Shown: piece by piece, positions 35,805 to 46,644 of the stretch | Numbering within the stretch: position 1 is the first letter of the stretch | Layout: every line of letters starts with the position of its first letter | Source of the DNA: Desulfobaculum xiamenense | Lineage (GTDB): Bacteria; Desulfobacterota; Desulfovibrionia; Desulfovibrionales; Desulfovibrionaceae | DNA length: 64,000 bases | Assembly: GCF_011927665.1 (NCBI RefSeq) | Contig: NZ_JAATJA010000001.1 | Span: 663,019 to 727,018 of the forward strand | Reading direction: 5' to 3' | The notes under the pieces: generated by a model | Seen by the model: the letters and a program-made list of their open reading frames with translations, nothing else | Told to the model about the DNA's origin: nothing | Database searches by the model: none | Program-made: the position numbers and the translations under genes

Positions 35805-35833
35805 TTGACAATGAGGGCGTTTCTGGTATTTGG
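35805..35833 (+). promoter_or_regulatory. Sigma-70 promoter of tRNA-Gly / rimP operon
   Basis: Perfect TTGACA at 35805-35810, a 17-base spacer, then TATTTG at 35828-35833. Transcription would start close to 35840, about nine bases before the tRNA. The -10 is a partial match. Confidence 0.6.
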
Positions 35834-35848
35834 TCTCGTTCCGAGGCG

Positions 35849-35923
35849 CGGGTGTAACTCAGTTGGTAGAGTACTAGCTTCCCAAGCTTGGAGTCGCGAG
35901 TTCGAACCTCGTCACCCGCTCCA
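35849..35923 (+). tRNA. tRNA-Gly (anticodon CCC)
   Basis: Acceptor GCGGGTG / CACCCGC, discriminator T, encoded CCA; D-stem ACTC / GAGT; anticodon loop TTCCCAA; T-arm GCGAG TTCGAAC CTCGT. The anticodon stem CTAGC / GCTTG has a U-U mismatch at the second pair (28-42). Confidence 0.96.
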
Positions 35924-35960
35924 AAACCTCTAACCCCTCGGATCTTTATCTAATGAGACG

Positions 35961-35988
35961 AGTGGACCTCGCGGTCCACTTTTTTTTT
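35961..35988 (+). terminator. Intrinsic terminator between tRNA-Gly and rimP
   Basis: Eight-base-pair stem AGTGGACC / GGTCCACT with tetraloop TCGC and a run of nine T starting at 35980. The T run ends 14 bases before the rimP start, so the operon downstream must depend on read-through or on a promoter hidden in the hairpin. Confidence 0.9.
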
Positions 35989-36002
35989 CAGGCAGATCAC
36001 CT

Positions 36003-36491
36003 ATGAACGCACAACTGATCCAGGAACTCGAAGACCTGATCAGGCCCATGGCCGAAGCGCTGGGCCTCGATTTGTGGGGGCTCGATTTCGCCACCGGCGG
36101 CAACAGCTCCATCCTTCGTGTCTATGTCGACACAGAGGACGGCGTGACCATCGACGAATGCGCCCGCCTGTCCCGCGATGTGAGCGTTGCGCTCGACGTG
36201 GAGGATATCATTTCCACGCGCTACACGCTGGAAGTCTCCTCCCCGGGGCTGGATCGGAAGTTCTTCGACCCGGCCCAGATGGTCCCGTACATTGGCCAGA
36301 ACGTTTCCGTAGCCCTCATCGAGGCCCTTGATGGCCGCAAGGGGTACTCCGGAAAGCTCGTCGCCGTCGAGGCGCAGACCATCACCATCGAAGATGGGGA
36401 AGGCACCGTCACGTGCAACTGGGACGAGATCAAGAAGGCCAACCTCCGCTACGCGTTCCCGGTACCCGGAACCAAGGGGAAGAAAGGCTAG
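36003..36491 (+). CDS. rimP: Ribosome maturation factor RimP
   Basis: A 162-residue 30S assembly factor. Family features: N-terminal alpha/beta domain (EDLIRPMAEALGLDLWGLDFATGGNSSILRVYVD), ITIDECARLSRDVS, the SSPGLDRKFF motif and a C-terminal SH3-like Sm fold. No strong Shine-Dalgarno precedes the ATG at 36003, which lies just after the terminator. First protein gene of the rimP-nusA-ylxR-infB operon. Confidence 0.95.
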   Translation: MNAQLIQELEDLIRPMAEALGLDLWGLDFATGGNSSILRVYVDTEDGVTIDECARLSRDVSVALDVEDIISTRYTLEVSSPGLDRKFFDPAQMVPYIGQNVSVALIEALDGRKGYSGKLVAVEAQTITIEDGEGTVTCNWDEIKKANLRYAFPVPGTKGKKG

Positions 36492-36559: not shown

Positions 36560-37915
36560 ATGAGCATGGAACTCAAGAAGGCCATCGAACAGATCAGCAA
36601 GGACAAGGGTATTGACCGCGACATGCTCGTCGATACCCTTGAAGAAGCCGTACGCTCCTCCGTCATCCGCAAGTATGGCGACGATATCGACGTTGAAGTA
36701 AGCTTCAACGAGGAGACCGGCGAAATCGAGGTTTACCAGTTCAAGGCCGTCGTCGAGGAAGTCGATGACGAAGCCACTGAAATCAACCTCGAAGACGCGC
36801 GGGAACACGATCCCGGCGCGCAGATTGACGACGAACTCGGCTTCCGCCTCAAGGTGGAAGACCTTGGACGCATCGCGGCCCAGTCCGCCAAGCAGGTGAT
36901 CATCCAGCGCATGCGTGACGCAGAGCAGGAAATCATCTACGAGGAATACAAGGACCGCATTGGCGAAATTATCAGCGGCATCGTGCAGCGCCGCGACAAG
37001 GCTGGCTGGATCATCAACCTCGGTCGTACCGAGGCGCTTCTGCCCAAGGAGCACCAGATCCCCCGCGAGCGCTACAAGCGCGGCGACCGGGTACAGGCCT
37101 ACCTCGTTGACGTGCGCCGCGAAGGCCGCGGACCGCAGGTCATCGTGTCCCGCTCGCACAACGAATACATGATTGCCCTCTTCAAGCGCGAAGTGCCTGA
37201 AGTTGGCGACGGTACCGTGCGCATTCTCGGCGTCGCCCGCGACGCTGGCAGCCGCGCCAAGGTTGCCGTCCAGTCCAGCGATCGCGACGTCGATCCCGTG
37301 GGCGCGTGTGTCGGCATCCGTGGCTCCCGCATCCAGAACATTGTGCAGGAGCTGCGCGGCGAGCGCATCGACATCGTGGTCTGGAGCCCCGATGTCGCCA
37401 CCTACGCGGTCAACGCCCTCTCCCCCGCCGTGATCAGCCGCATCACCGTGGACGAGGAAGACAACATGCTCGAAGTGGTCGTCCCGGACGATCAGCTCAC
37501 GCTGGCCATTGGCCGCAAGGGCCAAAACGTCAAGCTGGCCGCCAAGCTGCTCGGCTGGAAGATCGACATCTTCACCGAGTCCCGCTACGGCGACCTGCAT
37601 GCCGAGCTTCAGCATCTGGAACAGATCGCCAGCGTTGCCGAAATCCCGGTCGAGGAATTCCTCGCCGCGGGCTTCGACAGCGTCGAGAAGCTCGATGAGG
37701 CCGACGACGAAGATCTCATGGCCATTGGCGTTCTTACCGAGACCCAGATCGACGACATCCGCTCCGCCATCAACCTCCTGCGGTCCTTCCGCACCGAGGA
37801 AGAGGAAGGAGAAGGCTTCGACGACGAGGACGAGGACGAAATCGCCGACATGTCGGAAGTCTACTCCGCAGAAGACGACGAAACCGACGAAGAGGAAGCT
37901 CCCCGAGGGGAGTAA
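36560..37915 (+). CDS. nusA: Transcription termination/antitermination factor NusA
   Basis: A 451-residue RNA-polymerase-binding protein. Domains in order: N-terminal RNAP-binding domain (about 1-125), S1 (about 132-200: GEIISGIVQRRDKAGWIINLGRTEALLP), KH1 (about 205-275 with GACVGIRGSRIQNIVQEL) and KH2 (about 280-345 with LAIGRKGQNVKLAAKLLGW). The C-terminal part has one helix-hairpin-helix-type repeat and ends in a strongly acidic tail (about 415-451). GGAGG precedes the ATG. In E. coli NusA autoregulates its operon through leader terminators; the terminator before rimP could serve this here. Confidence 0.97.
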   Translation: MSMELKKAIEQISKDKGIDRDMLVDTLEEAVRSSVIRKYGDDIDVEVSFNEETGEIEVYQFKAVVEEVDDEATEINLEDAREHDPGAQIDDELGFRLKVEDLGRIAAQSAKQVIIQRMRDAEQEIIYEEYKDRIGEIISGIVQRRDKAGWIINLGRTEALLPKEHQIPRERYKRGDRVQAYLVDVRREGRGPQVIVSRSHNEYMIALFKREVPEVGDGTVRILGVARDAGSRAKVAVQSSDRDVDPVGACVGIRGSRIQNIVQELRGERIDIVVWSPDVATYAVNALSPAVISRITVDEEDNMLEVVVPDDQLTLAIGRKGQNVKLAAKLLGWKIDIFTESRYGDLHAELQHLEQIASVAEIPVEEFLAAGFDSVEKLDEADDEDLMAIGVLTETQIDDIRSAINLLRSFRTEEEEGEGFDDEDEDEIADMSEVYSAEDDETDEEEAPRGE

Positions 37916-37954: not shown

Positions 37955-38197
37955 ATGGAAACACGGAGCAGGCATGTCCCCGTACGCCGGTGCGTCATTT
38001 GCGGCCGGCGCTTCCCCAAGCGCGAACTTCAAAGATTCGTCTGCACGGGTGGGGACGAGCCGCAACTGGTCCGGGACGAAAAGGGCACGATGCCGGGCCG
38101 GGGCTTTTATCTCTGCTCCGATGAAGACTGCGGCAAACGGTTTCCGAAATACAAGGGCTGGCGAAGGAAAGGCCAGGGGGTAAAGCATGGCAGATAA
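37955..38197 (+). CDS. ylxR: YlxR/RnpM family RNA-binding protein
   Basis: An 80-residue basic protein with the family signature [20 protein letters not shown] and [15 protein letters not shown] (Cys pairs that may bind metal). YlxR-type proteins bind RNase P RNA and modulate it in Gram-positive bacteria. It sits in its usual place between nusA and infB and overlaps the infB start by 11 bases. Confidence 0.85.
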
Positions 38198-41100
38198 GCT
38201 TCGGGTAAAGGATATCTCGACAGAACTTGGGGTAACGAACAAGGATCTGATACAGGCCTGCCGCGAAATCGGCATTCCTGTCAAAAGCCACATGAGCACG
38301 CTCTCGACCGAGGAGGCAGACACCCTGCGCTCCAAGATCCGTGAAGCCTCCGCGTCCACCGAGGTGGTCCGCAAGGAGGTTCAGCCCGGTATGGTCGTGC
38401 GCAGGCGCAGAAAGCCGGTCAAGAAGACCGAATCCGCCAGAGTCCCCGAAAAAGTCTCCGAGACTCCCGAAGACATCACCGCCGCCCCCGCAAACGCCGA
38501 CTTCGAGCCCGAAGTCGCAGCCGTTGCCGAACAGCCCGCAGTGGAACCGGAGCCGAAGCCTGCGCCGAAAGACGCAGAGGAAGCCAAGCCCGTCACGAAG
38601 ACCGCGCCCAAGGTCAGAATCATCAAGCCCAAGACCGTAACAACCCCTGAGCCCGAAGTGATCGCAGAAGAAAAGAAGCCTGTAGCCGAAGCCGTCATTG
38701 TTCCCGAAGCCGTAAAGGCCGAACCCCCCGTTGCAACCGAAGCCCCTGCCGCCCCCAAGGCACAGGAAGCGCCCATCAAGTCGGAGGAGAAGCCCGCCGA
38801 AATCGAGATCGAAGTGAGAAAGACTTCCCACGAGACGGCCAAGCAGCCTGAAGAAGCCGCACAGGCGGCCGAACAGGACAAGGCCGAATCCGACGACGAT
38901 CGTCGTGCCAAGAGGAAGAAGAAGGTCAAGAAGAAGGAAGTCCCCGTGGCTCCCAAGGTCAGGATCATTTCCCGGCCCGATCCGAACGCGGCACCTGCCG
39001 CGCCCGCACCGGCTGCCGAAACCCGCCGTCCCGCTCCGGGCGGACGGCCTGCCGGCGAGCGCTCCTACGGTGATCGCCCCTCCGGCGAAAGGACTTATGG
39101 CGATCGTCCCTCCGGCGATCGCGGTTATGGTGACCGCCCCTCCGGCGATCGCAGCTATGGCGACCGTCCCGCTGGCGGCCGTCCGGCTGGCGCTCGCCCT
39201 GCCGGTCCCCGCCCCACTGGTGGTCGTCCCGGTCCCACTGGTGGTCGTCCCGGTCCCGCTGGCGGCGCTCCTCGCCCCGCAGGACCGCGCCCGGCTGGCG
39301 GTCGTCCCGGTGCGCCCTCCTTCACTCCGGACTCCGAAGTGCCCGGTGGTGGCGAAGCCCGCCGCAGGAAGAAGAAGGACAAGCGCGTCGTCGATTTTTC
39401 GCGCAAGGTCAATGAAGACCAGCAGGGCTTCCAGAAGACCGGCCGCAAGAAGGGCAAGGGCCGCGGGATGGAACAGATGGTTCAGCCCGCCAACACCCAG
39501 CCCCTCAAGGCTGCCAAGCGTAAGGTGAAGATGGAAGAGGCCATGCGCCTCGCCGATTTCGCCAAGCAGCTCGGCGTCAAGGCCCAGGCTCTCATCAAGG
39601 TGCTCTTCGGTCTCGGCGTGATGGCGACCATCAACCAGTCCATCGACTTCGAGACCGCCGTGCTGGTGGCCGCCGAATTCGGATACGAGGTCGAGAAAGT
39701 CGGCTTCTCCGAGAACGACTACCTCCTGCCCGAGCACGAGGATACGCCTGAAACGCTGAAGTCCCGCGCCCCCGTCGTGACCATCATGGGTCACGTCGAC
39801 CACGGCAAGACGTCTCTTCTGGACGCCATCCGCAAGTCGAAGATCACCTCCGGCGAAGCAGGCGGCATCACCCAGCACATCGGCGCCTACGACGTGGAGA
39901 CCGACCGCGGCAAGGTCGTGTTCCTCGACACCCCCGGTCACGAAGCGTTCACCGCCATGCGTGCCCGTGGTGCGCAGGTCACCGACATCGTCATTCTCGT
40001 TGTCGCAGCCGATGACGGCGTCATGGAGCAGACCCGAGAGGCCATCAACCACTCCAAGGCCGCTGGTGTTCCGATCATCGTGGCCGTGAACAAGATGGAC
40101 AAGCCCGAGGCCAACCCCGACCGCGTCATGCGCGAACTGGCCGACCACGGTCTGGTTCCGGAAGACTGGGGCGGAGAAACCATCTTCTGCTACGTGTCCG
40201 CCAAGACCGGCGAGAACCTCGACCAGCTGCTGGAAATGGTTCTGCTGCAGGCCGAAGTGCTCGAACTGAAGGCCAACCCGGACAAGCGCGCCGTCGGCCA
40301 CATCGTCGAAGCGCGTCTGGACAAGGGCCGTGGCGCTGTCGCCACCGTGCTCATCCAGGCCGGTACCCTGCGCCAGGGCGACAACTTCGTGTGCGGCACC
40401 CACAATGGTCGTGTCCGCGCCATGCACAACGACAAGGGCAAGAAGGTCAAGGAAGCCGGACCGGCGACTCCGGTCGAAGTCCAGGGCTTTGACGGCGTGC
40501 CCGAGGCCGGTGACGAGTTCATCTGCGTCGAGGACGAAAAGGTCGCACGCCGCATCGCCGGTGATCGCCAGATCAAGCAGCGCGAGCGCGCTCTGGCTCG
40601 CGAAAGCAAGGTGACGCTGGAAAGCTTCCTCGCCTCCCGCCCCGAAGCCGAAAGCCAGACCCTCAACCTCGTGCTCAAGGCCGACGTGCAGGGTTCGCTG
40701 GAAGCCATCACCGAGGCGCTGCGCAAGCTCTCGACGGACAAGATCAAGGTGGACATCGTGCACAGCGGTGCCGGTGCCATCACCGAGTCCGACATCCTGC
40801 TGGCCGCCGCGTCGCAGGCGATCATCATCGGCTTCAACGTCCGCCCGACCGCGAAGATCAAGGAAGTCGCCGAGCAGGAAAGCGTCGAAATCCGCTTCTA
40901 CGACATCATCTACAAGCTCGTGGGCGAGATCAAGGACGCCATGGCTGGCATGCTGGCTCCGGTCATCTCCGAGAAGTATCTCGGTCAGGCCGAAGTCCGC
41001 GACACCTTCTCCATCCCGAAGGTCGGCACGGTTGCAGGCTGCTTCGTGGTGGATGGCGAGCTTCGCCGCAACGCTGGCATCCGCCTGCTGCGCGACGGTG

Positions 41101-41270
41101 TGGTCATCTACACCGGCAAGATGAACTCCCTGAAGCGCTTCAAGGACGACGTCAAGGAAGTCCGCAAGGGCTACGAATGTGGTGGCGGCCTTGAGAACTT
41201 CAACGACATCAAGGTCGGGGACATCATCGAAGCCTTCGAGGTTGTCGAAACCGCCGCAACCCTCGACTAG
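38187..41270 (+). CDS. infB: Translation initiation factor IF-2
   Basis: A 1027-residue initiation GTPase that delivers fMet-tRNA to the 30S subunit. The N-terminal IF2_N module (about 1-50) is followed by a long disordered region rich in Ala, Pro, Glu and Lys (about 60-290), then tandem YGDRPSGDR repeats and PAGGRP-type repeats (about 293-378). The conserved core has G1 GHVDHGKTS near residue 536, DTPGHEAF and [10 protein letters not shown], then domains II-IV including the fMet-tRNA-binding C-terminus. The overlap with ylxR implies coupled translation. Confidence 0.97.
39063..39182 (+). repeat. Four 30-bp tandem repeats inside infB
   Basis: Four imperfect 30-base units encode [30 protein letters not shown] and [10 protein letters not shown] (residues about 293-332). 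A second, shorter Pro/Gly/Arg repeat series continues to about 39320. The units differ mainly at third positions, so the repeat is kept at protein level. Confidence 0.9.
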
Positions 41271-41623: not shown

Positions 41624-41965
41624 ATGCAACGCTCAGATTCCCGCAGGTCCCACAGGCTTGGCGACCAGGTCATGCGCGAAGTGGCATCCATGCTCTTCAA
41701 GGAGGTCTCGGACCCCCGCGTGGAGATGGTCACTGTCAGTGGTGTGCGCATGAACAAGGACCTCTCCATCGCCGAGATTCTCTACACCGTGCCCGGCGGT
41801 CCGGAACAGCGCGAGGACGCGGCAAAGGGCCTTGCCAAGGCGGCTGGCTTCATGCGCTCGCTTCTGGGCAAGCGCCTCAAGAGCAAGTCCATTCCCCTGC
41901 TTCGCTTCGTTTACGACGACTACCTTGAGGATATGGTCTATGACCACCCCCAGGCAGAAGATTAA
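41624..41965 (+). CDS. rbfA: Ribosome-binding factor A
   Basis: A 113-residue KH-type protein that helps mature the 5' end of 16S rRNA in the 30S subunit. Family marks: RSHRLGDQVMREVASMLFKEVSDPRVEMVTVSGV, and AAGFMRSLLGKRLKSKSIPLLRFVYDD near the C-terminus. Its end overlaps the nrnA start by 26 bases. Confidence 0.95.
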   Translation: MQRSDSRRSHRLGDQVMREVASMLFKEVSDPRVEMVTVSGVRMNKDLSIAEILYTVPGGPEQREDAAKGLAKAAGFMRSLLGKRLKSKSIPLLRFVYDDYLEDMVYDHPQAED

Positions 41966-42908
41966 GGAAATCCTCCGCGAAGGGCAGAGCTTCCTCGTTG
42001 CGGCGCATGCAAGCCCGGACGGCGACGCCCTCGGCTCCACCGCCGCCCTCGGCCACCTGCTCGTCCAGCTTGGCAAAGAGGTCACGCTCTACAACCCTTC
42101 GGGCGTGCCGAACCAGTTCGACTGGATCGACCTGCCCTGCCCACTGGTGTCGGAACTTCCCGACGAGTTGCCGCAGTGGCTCATCGCCCTCGACTGCGGC
42201 GATGTCCGCCGCCTCGGAGATGCGCTCGCCGCGCGCTTCGGTACCACCTCCACCGTCAACATCGACCATCATCTGGGCAATCCCGGATATGCCGACGTGA
42301 ACTGGGTTGATCCCAATTTCTCCTCGGTCGGCGAAATGGTGGCCACGCTGGCTCGCGATCTCGACATTCCGCTCAGCGGTGCGCTCGGCGAAGGCGTCTA
42401 TCTCGCTCTCGTGTCCGACACCGGCTACTTCAGCTACGGCAACACGCATCCGGAAACCCTCATCCTCGCGGCGGAGCTTCTGCGCGAAGGTCTGGACCCC
42501 GAATTCTTCAACGCCCGCTTCCTGAACCAGTGGACGATGGGTCGCCTGAAGCTGTGGTCCCGCGTGCTGAGCGGGGCGAAACTGCATCTCGACGGCAGGG
42601 TCGGCACCATCCGCATCACGCAGGACATGCTCGACGAAACGGGCACCACCTCCGAGGATACGGACGGCATCGTCAACTACATCCGTCGCGTCAAGGGCGT
42701 GAAAGCCGCCGTCAGCCTGCGCGAGGACGGTCCGGACAGGACCAAGGTCAGCCTGCGCTCGTCCGGCGAAATGAACGTGCAGGCCATCGCCAGCAGACTC
42801 GGCGGCGGCGGGCACAAGAACGCGGCGGGCATCCTGCTCACGGTTCCGCTCGACGAGGCGGAACGTCTGATCCTTGAAGCGGCGGCAGGCCACTTCGACA
42901 GCAACTGA
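41940..42908 (+). CDS. nrnA: DHH-family oligoribonuclease/pAp phosphatase (NrnA-like)
   Basis: A 322-residue bifunctional DHH phosphoesterase that degrades nanoRNAs and hydrolyses pAp. Motifs: SPDGDALGSTAAL (residues about 25-37), ALDCGD, the NIDHHLGN DHH signature near residue 100, and the DHHA1 motif GGGGHKNAAG near 295. I start at the ATG at 41940, preceded by TTGAGG, overlapping rbfA. This rbfA-nrnA-truB order is common. Confidence 0.9.
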   Translation: MTTPRQKIKEILREGQSFLVAAHASPDGDALGSTAALGHLLVQLGKEVTLYNPSGVPNQFDWIDLPCPLVSELPDELPQWLIALDCGDVRRLGDALAARFGTTSTVNIDHHLGNPGYADVNWVDPNFSSVGEMVATLARDLDIPLSGALGEGVYLALVSDTGYFSYGNTHPETLILAAELLREGLDPEFFNARFLNQWTMGRLKLWSRVLSGAKLHLDGRVGTIRITQDMLDETGTTSEDTDGIVNYIRRVKGVKAAVSLREDGPDRTKVSLRSSGEMNVQAIASRLGGGGHKNAAGILLTVPLDEAERLILEAAAGHFDSN

Positions 42909-42918
42909 CTGGATAGGC

Positions 42919-43851
42919 ATGGGAAAGAAAAGAAAACGCAGCGTCAGCCAGCTCGACGGCATCCTCGTGCTGGACAAGCCCACCGGCCCCTCTTCGGCTC
43001 AATGTCTGAACACCATCCGCCGCGCCCTTGATCAGGGGCGCATAGGCCATGCCGGAACCCTCGATCCCATGGCCAAGGGCGTTTTGCTGGTCCTCCTCGG
43101 ACACGGCACCAAACTCGCCCCATACTTGACAAGCGGACGAAAAACATATTCTGGACAGTTTCGGATCGGTCAGACGACCGACACTTACGACGCCGAAGGC
43201 ACGGTCACCGATGAAAAGCCATTTGACCATCTCTCGCCTGAAGCGGTAGAAAGAGAAGTCCTGTTTTGGAAGGAACTGGAGACGCAGACCGTTCCTCCGG
43301 TCTCTGCGGCCAAGCACGAGGGCAAGCCCCTGTACGCGTTGGCCCGTGCCGGACGCGAAGTTCCGGTCAAAACGAAGTCTATTGAAATTTTCCACGCGGA
43401 GGTCCTCGAAATGGACCTCCCGTGGGTACGCTTCCGGGTCGGTTGTTCCGCCGGAACCTATGTGCGGTCCCTGGTCCACAGCTTGGGGATTCGACTTGGT
43501 TGCGGTGCGGTGCTCACGGAACTGATCCGAGAAGACTGCCATCCCTTCGGGCTTGAGCGAGCCGTCGGTCTCGACGAGCTTCTCGCCTCGCCCGAGCGTT
43601 TGCCCGAGCTGGTCGTCCCCCTGCGGGATGCCCTGCCCCACTGGCCAGCCATCGTCCTCGACGAAGAGCAGGCCGGTCAGGTGCGCAACGGCACATGGCT
43701 TCCGGTAGCGGATTTCCCCGCCACCGAGCCGGTGACCGAAGCCGGAGCGAACGCCATGCTTATCGGCCCGGACGAGGTCCCCCTCGCACTGGTCGAATCC
43801 GCAGAGCGGGATGGCGTTCTGTTATGGTCCATACTGCGCGGCCTCTGGTAG
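42919..43851 (+). CDS. truB: tRNA pseudouridine-55 synthase TruB
   Basis: A 310-residue enzyme that makes pseudouridine 55 in the T-loop of tRNAs. The catalytic motif [19 protein letters not shown] (Asp near residue 47), [22 protein letters not shown] and the [15 protein letters not shown] motif are intact. The ATG at 42919 is preceded by GGATAGG; an earlier frame overlaps nrnA. The N-terminus has a short basic extension, MGKKRKRS. Confidence 0.96.
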
Positions 43852-44349: not shown

Positions 44350-44376
44350 CATTTCTCACTAAGAGGTATCACATTG

Positions 44377-46644
44377 ATGAATTCTCTCACCTTTTCCCCC
44401 TTCCGCAAGACCGCGCTGATCGGTGATCGCGAGATCACCATCGAAACCGGCAAGCTGGCAAAGCAGGCTCACGGCGCGGTGTGGATCCAGTGCGGCGGCA
44501 CCGTCGTGATGGTGACCGTGGTCACCCAGCCGCTGCCCGTCGACAAGGGCTTCTTCCCCCTCACCGTTGAGTACAAGGAACTTGCCTACGCCGCCGGTCG
44601 CATTCCCGGCAGCTTCTTCCGCCGCGAAGTGGGCCGTCCCAGCGAGCGCGAAGTCCTCGTCTGCCGCCTGATCGACCGCCCCTGCCGTCCGCTGTTCCCC
44701 GCGGGCTTCCGGGATGAAGTCCAGATCATCGCGCAGGTCCACTCCGCCGACGATCAGAACGATCCCGACGTGCTCGCCATCTGCGGCGCGTCCACTGCCC
44801 TCGGCATTTCCAAGATTCCGTTCATGGGCCCCATCGCTGGTGCGCGCATCGGCTACCTGGACAAGAAGTTCGTCTTCAACCCCACCTACGCCCAGATCGC
44901 CGAGAGCGAGCTGAACCTCGTGATGGCTGGCAGCCGCGAGGCCGTCGTCATGGTTGAGGGTTCCGCCCAGTTTGCGCCCGAATCCCTCATCGCCGACGCC
45001 ATCGAATGGGGACATCAGCAGATGCAGCCCCTTCTGGACGCTCAGGAAGCCCTGCGCGCCGAGTGCGGCCAGCCCAAGATGGAAGTCGCCGAGGCTCCCG
45101 TGGACGAGGAAGTCAAGGCCGCCGTCGAGGAGATCGCCACTCCCAAGCTGCGCGAGGCTCTGGCCATCCCCGAGAAGCTCGCCCGCTACGCCGCCAAGGA
45201 CGCCGTGAAGAGCGAAGTCATGGCTTCCCTGACCGAGCGTTTCGCTGAAGAGCCCGCACGCCTCGCCCCCGTGGGCGAAATCCTCAAGGACATCACCAAG
45301 AGCATCGTGCGTGGCCGCATCAAGAACGAGCGCACCCGCATCGACGGCCGCGACCTGACCACCGTCCGCCCGCTGGGCATCGAGGTCGGCCTGCTGCCGC
45401 GCACCCACGGTTCCGCCCTGTTCGCACGTGGCGAAACCATGGCCGTGGTCACCGCCACCATGGGCAGCACCCGCGACGAGCAGCGCACCGACTCCCTCGT
45501 GGGCGACTGCGTGAAGCGCTTCATGCTGCACTACAACTTCCCGCCCTACTGCGTCGGTGAAGTCCGCATGATGCGCGGACCGTCCCGCCGCGAAATCGGC
45601 CATGGCGCTCTCGCCGAGCGCGCCATCAGCCCCATTCTGCCCTCCATTGAGGAGTTCCCCTTCACCGTGCGCGTCGTGTCCGAGATCATGGAGTCCAACG
45701 GCTCCTCCTCCATGGCGACGGTGTGCGGCTCCTCCCTTGCGCTCATGGACGCCGGCATCCCGGTGAAGTGCTCCATCGCGGGCGTGGCCATGGGTCTCAT
45801 CAAGGAAGACGACGAGTACCTCGTGCTCACCGACATCCTTGGCGATGAGGACGCTCTGGGCGATATGGACTTCAAGGTTGCCGGTTCCAGCGAAGGCGTC
45901 ACCGCCATCCAGATGGATATCAAGATCACCGGCATCCCGTCCGAGGTGCTGCGTTCCGCCCTGGCTCAGGCCAAGGAAGGCCGCCTGCACATCCTCGAAA
46001 ACATGGAGGCCGTCATCGCCGCGCCGCGTCCGGAACTTTCCGAGTACGCTCCGCAGCTCGAAGTGGTCACCGTGCATCCGGACAAGATCCGCTCCGTCAT
46101 CGGACCCGGCGGCAAAAACATCAAGGCGATCACCAGCGACACCGGTGCCGACATCGACATCGAGGACGATGGCCGCGTGTTCATCTTCGCCCCGACCAGA
46201 GAGTCTCTGGAGCGCGCGAAGGAACTGGTGCTCTACCATGACCAGACCGCCGAAGTCGGCCGGAACTACGAGGGCCGCGTGACCCGCGTCATCGACTGCG
46301 GCGTGGTCGTCGAGATCCTGCCCGGCGTCGATGGCCTGGTGCACGTCTCCCAGCTCGACATCAACCGCGTCGAGCAGCCCGGCGACGTTGCCAAGCTCGG
46401 CGACACCATGAAGGTCAAGGTTCTCGAAGTCGAGCCGACCGGCCGTGTGCGCCTGTCGCGCAAGGCAGTCCTCATGGAGGACGCCGGTCAGACCGTCGAC
46501 CTCGCCGACTTCGCCAAGACCGGCGGCGGCAAGCCGCGCGGTGGTGACCGCGGCGGCGAGCGCGGCGGCGAACGTCGCGGTGGCGATCGTCCCCGTGGCG
46601 GCGATCGCGGTGGCGACCGTCGTGGTGGCGGCGGACGCCGCTAG
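44377..46644 (+). CDS. pnp: Polyribonucleotide nucleotidyltransferase (PNPase)
   Basis: A 755-residue phosphorolytic 3'-5' exoribonuclease. Two RNase PH-like domains (about 10-220 and about 305-540) flank a helical linker; the second has [31 protein letters not shown] and the [18 protein letters not shown] catalytic region. KH (about 555-610, [13 protein letters not shown]) and S1 (about 620-690) follow. The C-terminus is an Arg/Gly-rich tail of about 40 residues ([10 protein letters not shown] type repeats). The ATG at 44377 is chosen over the TTG at 44374 with AAGAGG upstream. Last gene of the operon, closed by a strong terminator. Confidence 0.97.

Follow-up and report, generated by a model that had tools for sequence, protein, structure and literature searches.

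A tRNA-Gly(CCC) gene and a rimP-leader-type terminator at the head of the rimP-nusA-infB operon in Desulfobaculum xiamenense and its relatives: a probable attenuator with a candidate antiterminator

Among transcription attenuators the rimP-leader has been described as the most ubiquitous; in the accessible sections of its description its stem is specific to rimP, an antiterminator is visible only in some gammaproteobacteria, and NusA is named as the best candidate for its reader (Naville & Gautheret 2010, PMC2965389). In S. agalactiae, short and long transcripts that share a common start were assigned to the rimP terminator, and NusA feedback was suggested for the two forms (PMC4448216, available sections). 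E. coli NusA controls its own operon, and in the metY leader of that operon RNase III excises the tRNA (PMC6511841, likewise from the sections at hand). A search of the literature, covering mostly open papers and in part titles and the beginnings of abstracts, returned no account of rimP combined with tRNA-Gly in Desulfovibrio, and the portions of PMC8060035 and PMC9514032 that were available held nothing on a tRNA-rimP head.

The window, i.e. the whole 64,000-nucleotide stretch of D. xiamenense DNA that was analysed, carries a tRNA gene, a terminator and rimP-nusA-infB on one strand (+), as in a metY-type operon head. The promoter of the tRNA (35805–35832) was read from the sequence as a −35 element TTGACA (35805–35810) and a −10 element TATTTG (35827–35832) with a spacer of 16 bases. 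It is followed by tRNA-Gly(CCC) with an encoded CCA end (35848–35923; ARAGORN, and Rfam tRNA at 63 bits), whose sequence has a single match in the genome, and whose upstream neighbour, flgF, is divergent. A 3' trailer of 36 bases (35924–35959) leads to the terminator hairpin GAGUGGACC-UCGC-GGUCCACUU (35960–35981, −14.2 kcal/mol), with nine pairs (35960–35968 with 35973–35981), a loop at 35969–35972 and the stem core GUGGACC/GGUCCAC. The U-tract of nine T (35980–35988) ends 14 bases (35989–36002) before the rimP ATG at 36003. Downstream genes were named with NCBIfam models: rimP (36003–36491; RimP models with a top score of 156 bits, no match among the 25 listed exceeding its own cut-off), nusA (36560–37915; TIGR01953, 417 bits), a ylxR/rnpM-like gene of the RNase P modulator family (37955–38197; NF047356, E 1.5e-12, 47 bits and thus below the cut-off of 80), infB for IF2 (38187–41270; TIGR00487, 865 bits), and then rbfA (41624–41965; TIGR00082), truB (42874–43851; TIGR00431) and pnp (44374–46644; TIGR03591). 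The tRNA-headed operon thereby also encodes an RnpM/YlxR relative, TruB and PNPase, all of which are tied to tRNA or RNA processing.

The original prediction had proposed this metY-like order of promoter, tRNA-Gly(CCC) and terminator, with a T run ending 14 bases from the rimP ATG and an unclear ribosome site, and each of these elements was recovered. The ribosome site indeed looks weak, AGG at 35990–35992 being all that is visible. The eight bases immediately 5' of the ATG (35995–36002) read GATCACCT, which resembles the 3' end of 16S rRNA and is thus more like an anti-Shine-Dalgarno than a Shine-Dalgarno sequence. The promoter recurs as TTGAC at 65–20 bases 5' of the tRNA in 110 of the 116 tRNA-bearing loci of the order described below (1/116 in a control window further upstream), and as TTGAC combined with TA at a spacing of 15–19 in 87/116. 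A scan for consensus promoters missed it on account of the poor −10 element. The same scan gave no + strand candidate between the terminator and rimP, which is weak evidence since it missed the tRNA promoter too and is insensitive here. Read-through had been named as the likely control point, and six loci of genus g10 (L020, L036, L042, L111, L115, L130) point in the same direction: a T9 tract stops 3 bases short of the rimP ATG, so that a separate rimP leader has little room. No Shine-Dalgarno sequence is seen between T9 and ATG in these six loci, where the U-tract or the hairpin may serve rimP translation instead.

The arrangement is not confined to the window. A rimP match was obtained in 37 of 39 relatives and, across the order, in 244 of 247 genomes, and 154 upstream regions drawn from these overlapping match sets were examined; genus g42, with rimP in 53 of its 55 genomes, lies outside these 154 loci, as do genera g38, g49 and g51. 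tRNA-Gly(CCC) was found upstream of rimP in 116/154 loci, and no other tRNA was found upstream of rimP in any of the 154. Elsewhere in the phylum, among the best 30 of 114 matches in 118 genomes, 19 loci carry tRNA-Gly(CCC) and none a different tRNA before rimP; the tRNA-less remainder (n = 11) includes L164 and L177, for which the upstream stretch comprises only 425 and 150 bases. Similarly, 20 of 80 NusA-named loci have a same-strand upstream tRNA, in every case tRNA-Gly(CCC) (e.g. Desulfacinum hydrothermale), under titles naming Desulfovibrio, Desulfovibrionaceae, Desulfacinum, other Desulfo- taxa, Deltaproteobacteria or Proteobacteria. ARAGORN called no tRNA in the stretches of up to 2.5 kb examined upstream of nusA in the sampled loci titled Alphaproteobacteria, Myxococcota or Geobacteraceae. 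At L013, where no tRNA was called, the sequence CCGCTCCACTCC, about 215–200 bases 5' of the rimP match and ahead of the hairpin, looks like the remnant of a tRNA 3' end. The head had been suggested to be convergent or ancient. It is ancient inside the phylum, where it is widespread. The tRNA-Gly(CCC) head is probably independent of E. coli metY, because the tRNA differs and no tRNA was called in the stretches examined upstream of nusA in the other groups sampled. This suggests repeated selection for a coupling of tRNA output to the nusA-infB operon.

The terminator is even more persistent than the tRNA. With one mismatch allowed, a hairpin with T run was found in 116/116 loci with the tRNA and in 36/38 without it, compared to 3/154 shuffled regions and 6/116 regions upstream of the tRNA. 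The two misses are L156 and L157, where the rimP match starts inside the protein; a stricter hairpin search found none in L106, L112, L119 and L157. As it is present in 36 of the 38 tRNA-less loci, the hairpin appears to predate the tRNA-hairpin arrangement. A genome-wide terminator family was rejected, as the exact stem-loop pattern has a single genomic occurrence and just three further sites match it with one mismatch. Among 150 hairpins of the order the stem forms included GGGC (77), GAGC (26), GGAC (23) and GGCC (16); the window has the GGAC/GUCC form, and the published rimP-leader stem reads GGGc(...)gCCC. In the 30 phylum loci outside the order the hairpin is mostly AAGUGGGC...GCCCACUUUU, with or without the tRNA (27/30 by a variant-tolerant search expression, 28 by eye, the exceptions being L165 and L173), and hairpins of this type were also seen in some loci titled Alphaproteobacteria. 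Two further elements were observed in this region. In genus g5 (L008, L044, L050, L052, L061, L108) an extra hairpin of the CGCAGGG...CCCUGCG type, with changes that look compensatory by eye, lies between the tRNA and the terminator. Furthermore, 25 loci, of which 9 have a nearby tRNA and 16 do not, carry a CATCCTG block up to 60 bases 5' of the hairpin that can pair with the arm sequence CGGGGUG (e.g. L004, L007, L026, L029, L066, L075, L086, L096, L127, L154, L158).

These properties fit the published rimP-leader attenuator and a terminator that does not depend on the tRNA, a relationship overlooked in the original prediction. Like the window, the rimP-leader is a short U-tract terminator with a conserved G-rich 5' arm, located 4–130 nt before rimP; the accessible sections of its description mention no tRNA, whereas the window has a tRNA head (PMC2965389). 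The GUGGACC stem of the window also differs from the GGGC commonest in the order. The Rfam model RF01770, which is gammaproteobacterial and scores 102 bits in E. coli (L219), gave no match in the window at its gathering score and none in L001, L014, L021, L159 and L174 at E up to 1.

A terminator behind a tRNA gene is usual in itself, and the tRNA has its own promoter. It could be proposed on these grounds that an ordinary tRNA and its terminator happen to lie ahead of an operon driven by its own, unseen promoter, which the insensitive promoter scan might have missed. However, the terminator is unlike those of other tRNAs. Twenty-three other tRNA genes of this genome (from the best 30 of 66 tRNA loci) have a terminator, which follows the CCA after 8–12 bases in 22 of them; the one exception, at a gap of 42, has a nearer hairpin visible in its trailer. 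The energies of these terminators range from −16.9 to −30.8 kcal/mol with a median of about −21, and 17 tRNA terminators of three relatives (from the best-scoring of 153 tRNA loci) have a median gap of 9 and −20.1 kcal/mol. Conversely, the rimP terminator of the window stands at a gap of 36 bases with −14.2 kcal/mol, and across the 116 loci its median gap is 38 (minimum 15) and its median energy −13.6 kcal/mol (n = 113). Its position, its strength and its presence in tRNA-less loci thus disfavour an ordinary tRNA terminator. Together with the T9 tract 3 bases from the ATG in six relatives and the joint occurrence of tRNA and rimP in 116/154 loci of the order and 19/30 (best of 114) outside it, they make a chance neighbourhood quite improbable.

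The sequence between the tRNA and the terminator was further studied for complementarity to the terminator arm. In three other families of the order, f2, f3 and f4, represented by 22 distinct loci from nine genera, the UCCA tail of the tRNA and the CUCC opening its trailer are complementary over 8 bases to the 5' arm GGRGUGGR. CUCC directly 3' of CCA is kept in 30 loci. Trailers starting with CT, CA or CG were found in 32 loci, 25 of them distinct; 22 were used, with L017, L024 and L125 left out for a bulged helix (the former two with another trailer) and L016 and L113 re-anchored. A MAFFT alignment of 23 trailers was set aside because it misplaced the arm. In the alignment used instead, anchored at both ends, the arm-side anchor (TGG, A or G, C) imposes the four UCCA pairs, and the free test comprises the four CUCC pairs only; these were present in 88/88 cells, falling to 63, 54 and 37 of 88 when the trailer was slid by 1–3. 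The next pair (+5) forms in 17/22 loci versus 10.3 for shuffled sequences (p 0.004), but largely within two groups of related loci. When no anchor was imposed, 29 of the 30 CTCC loci reached 8/8 tail and trailer pairs, the exception being the bulged L125, as did 5 of 83 rimP loci without CTCC. None of 17 control tRNAs did so (one reached 7, two reached 6), and a CTCC trailer occurred in 0/49 other tRNAs of three such genomes, both sets being taken from the best-scoring of 153 loci. In L125 trailer and arm share a longer complementarity, CUCCGAA:UUCGGAG, interrupted by one bulge. The tail/trailer helix of the CUCC type would be a cis antiterminator, which as a sequence-based assignment is well supported in f2, f3 and f4; the complementarity of a tRNA tail and trailer to the 5' arm of the terminator is new here.

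Across the wider set of loci the evidence for such pairing is mixed. In a swap test on 44 representatives, native trailer-arm pairs were better than swapped ones by −1.06 kcal/mol, compared to a mean of −0.09 (sd 0.25, lowest of 30 −0.52) with shuffled trailers and to −0.37 and +0.21 for control stretches upstream of the tRNA and in rimP. The difference reached significance when the NCCA tail was added or when the arm was restricted to its outer 9 bases, the latter chosen post hoc with the data already seen, and did not reach it when the trailer by itself was set against all 14 bases of the arm (p 0.16–0.28). Because the representatives were picked by sequence similarity, relatedness was reduced and not removed; L148 and L156 were dropped from the swap and folding tests for a bad rimP anchor. 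Duplex energies did not exceed those of dinucleotide-shuffled trailers (mean z 0.04, 1/59 at p 0.05), and a general energy excess of the trailer-arm duplex was rejected. In folding simulations, RNA ending with the 5' arm combined an intact acceptor stem with at least 4 arm:trailer pairs in 35/42 loci, compared to 8/23 control tRNAs (from the best 30 of 66 loci) with at least 4 such pairs, and the full RNA formed the terminator in 35/42. The UGG of the arm is retained in loci without a tRNA, and its conservation can consequently not be attributed to the CCA end. In the window itself the predicted antiterminator consists of six pairs between CCCUCG of the trailer (35935–35940) and 35959–35965, with U35963 bulged, and the latter segment overlaps the 5' arm of the terminator. 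Trailer pairing alone was computed at −10.3 kcal/mol, versus −17.1 with the terminator. A block similar to CCCUCG was seen by eye in L002, L003, L031 and L034. Since this modelled helix has six pairs and leaves the CCA end uninvolved, an antiterminator is only plausible in the window.

In combination, these observations make it reasonably probable that the head is an attenuator of rimP-nusA-infB, in which the tRNA promoter feeds the operon, read-through is the point of control, NusA would provide feedback and an antiterminator would add a further layer. RNA polymerase would start at the tRNA-Gly promoter, complete the tRNA and meet a moderate, late terminator of the rimP-leader type. Some transcripts would stop there and yield tRNA-Gly(CCC), and the remainder would read through to provide what we infer to be the main mRNA for rimP-nusA-rnpM-infB and the later genes. 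By analogy with E. coli, NusA probably promotes stopping, lowering read-through and thus limiting its own synthesis and setting the level of the operon. The antiterminator helix, in which RNA just 3' of the tRNA pairs with the 5' arm, would compete with the terminator, and in families f2, f3 and f4 the UCCA end of the tRNA itself would join it. The candidate antiterminator strand would then be the conserved 3' end of a tRNA, in a type of attenuator mostly lacking a visible antiterminator according to the accessible sections of PMC2965389.

Alternatively, only the hairpin could matter: a protein, most likely NusA, would read the stem, as Naville & Gautheret proposed (PMC2965389, accessible sections), and the trailer complementarity would then be a by-product of the G-rich arm. 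Loci that lack the tRNA keep the stem sequence, both within the phylum and among some Alphaproteobacteria-titled records, the trailer-arm energies are no better than those of shuffled trailers, and the five non-CTCC loci pair equally well, all of which agrees with a hairpin acting alone. However, neither the retention of CUCC next to CCA in 30 loci (22 distinct counted, nine genera) nor its absence from the 49 other tRNA trailers (from the best-scoring of 153 loci) would be expected of a by-product, and the swap test favours native pairs; on balance we regard a role of the hairpin only as a real but somewhat less probable possibility. The helix could also be a processing stem, with a role in releasing the tRNA and in the decay of the mRNA instead of in termination. 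The metY tail/trailer CACUUUCC folds with GGAAAGUG into a candidate RNase III helix, in line with the excision of metY tRNA by this enzyme (PMC6511841, accessible sections). Still, the E. coli partner is separate from the terminators, whereas here it is the 5' arm of the terminator itself, so that the helix and the terminator cannot both form. Helices of 8–9 pairs are moreover short for RNase III, and a pure processing role is considered unlikely. Read-through control is retained as the preferred reading, with the antiterminator as an added layer to which the processing stem and the protein-read hairpin are the rivals. A more far-reaching version, which we regard as doubtful, would make the tRNA a sensor in cis: an unprocessed CCA tail and trailer would hold the arm open and the operon on, and once the tail was trimmed or bound the terminator would form and only the tRNA be made. 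As the operon encodes an RNase P modulator relative, TruB and PNPase besides NusA and IF2, it would, if this is true, read and adjust tRNA-maturation capacity, through a T-box-like choice made by the nascent tRNA of its own leader.

In T-boxes a UGGN element faces the NCCA end of a tRNA, which decides whether the terminator or the antiterminator forms. The likeness in the relatives lies in the same UGGN facing an NCCA tRNA end, a pairing that is possible in 29 of the 30 CTCC loci of the other families and absent from the predicted fold of the window. The differences are that the tRNA is here in cis and nascent, and that the pairing partner is the 5' arm of the terminator. No Rfam T-box match was obtained in the window or in L001, L014, L021, L159 and L174, and the interval from promoter to terminator holds only a short leader, the tRNA and 36 bases, without a Stem I or specifier loop; a true T-box was thus ruled out. 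The metY head of E. coli is closer, likewise consisting of a tRNA with its own promoter, terminator(s) and then rimP-nusA-infB. It differs in carrying tRNA-fMet and two terminators (in K-12 metY, then AAAGCCCCGAUUUAUCGGGGUUUUUU and CUGGGCUUUAGGCCCUUUUUUU, then rimP) where the window has tRNA-Gly(CCC) and one, and in having an internal promoter P2 and a longer spacer (PMC6511841, accessible sections). Its tail and trailer pair, in a computed fold, with a downstream segment apart from the terminators, whereas in the relatives the predicted 8-pair tail/trailer helix, weaker in the window, would engage the terminator arm. The E. coli and tRNA-Gly heads thus look like separate solutions built from the same parts.
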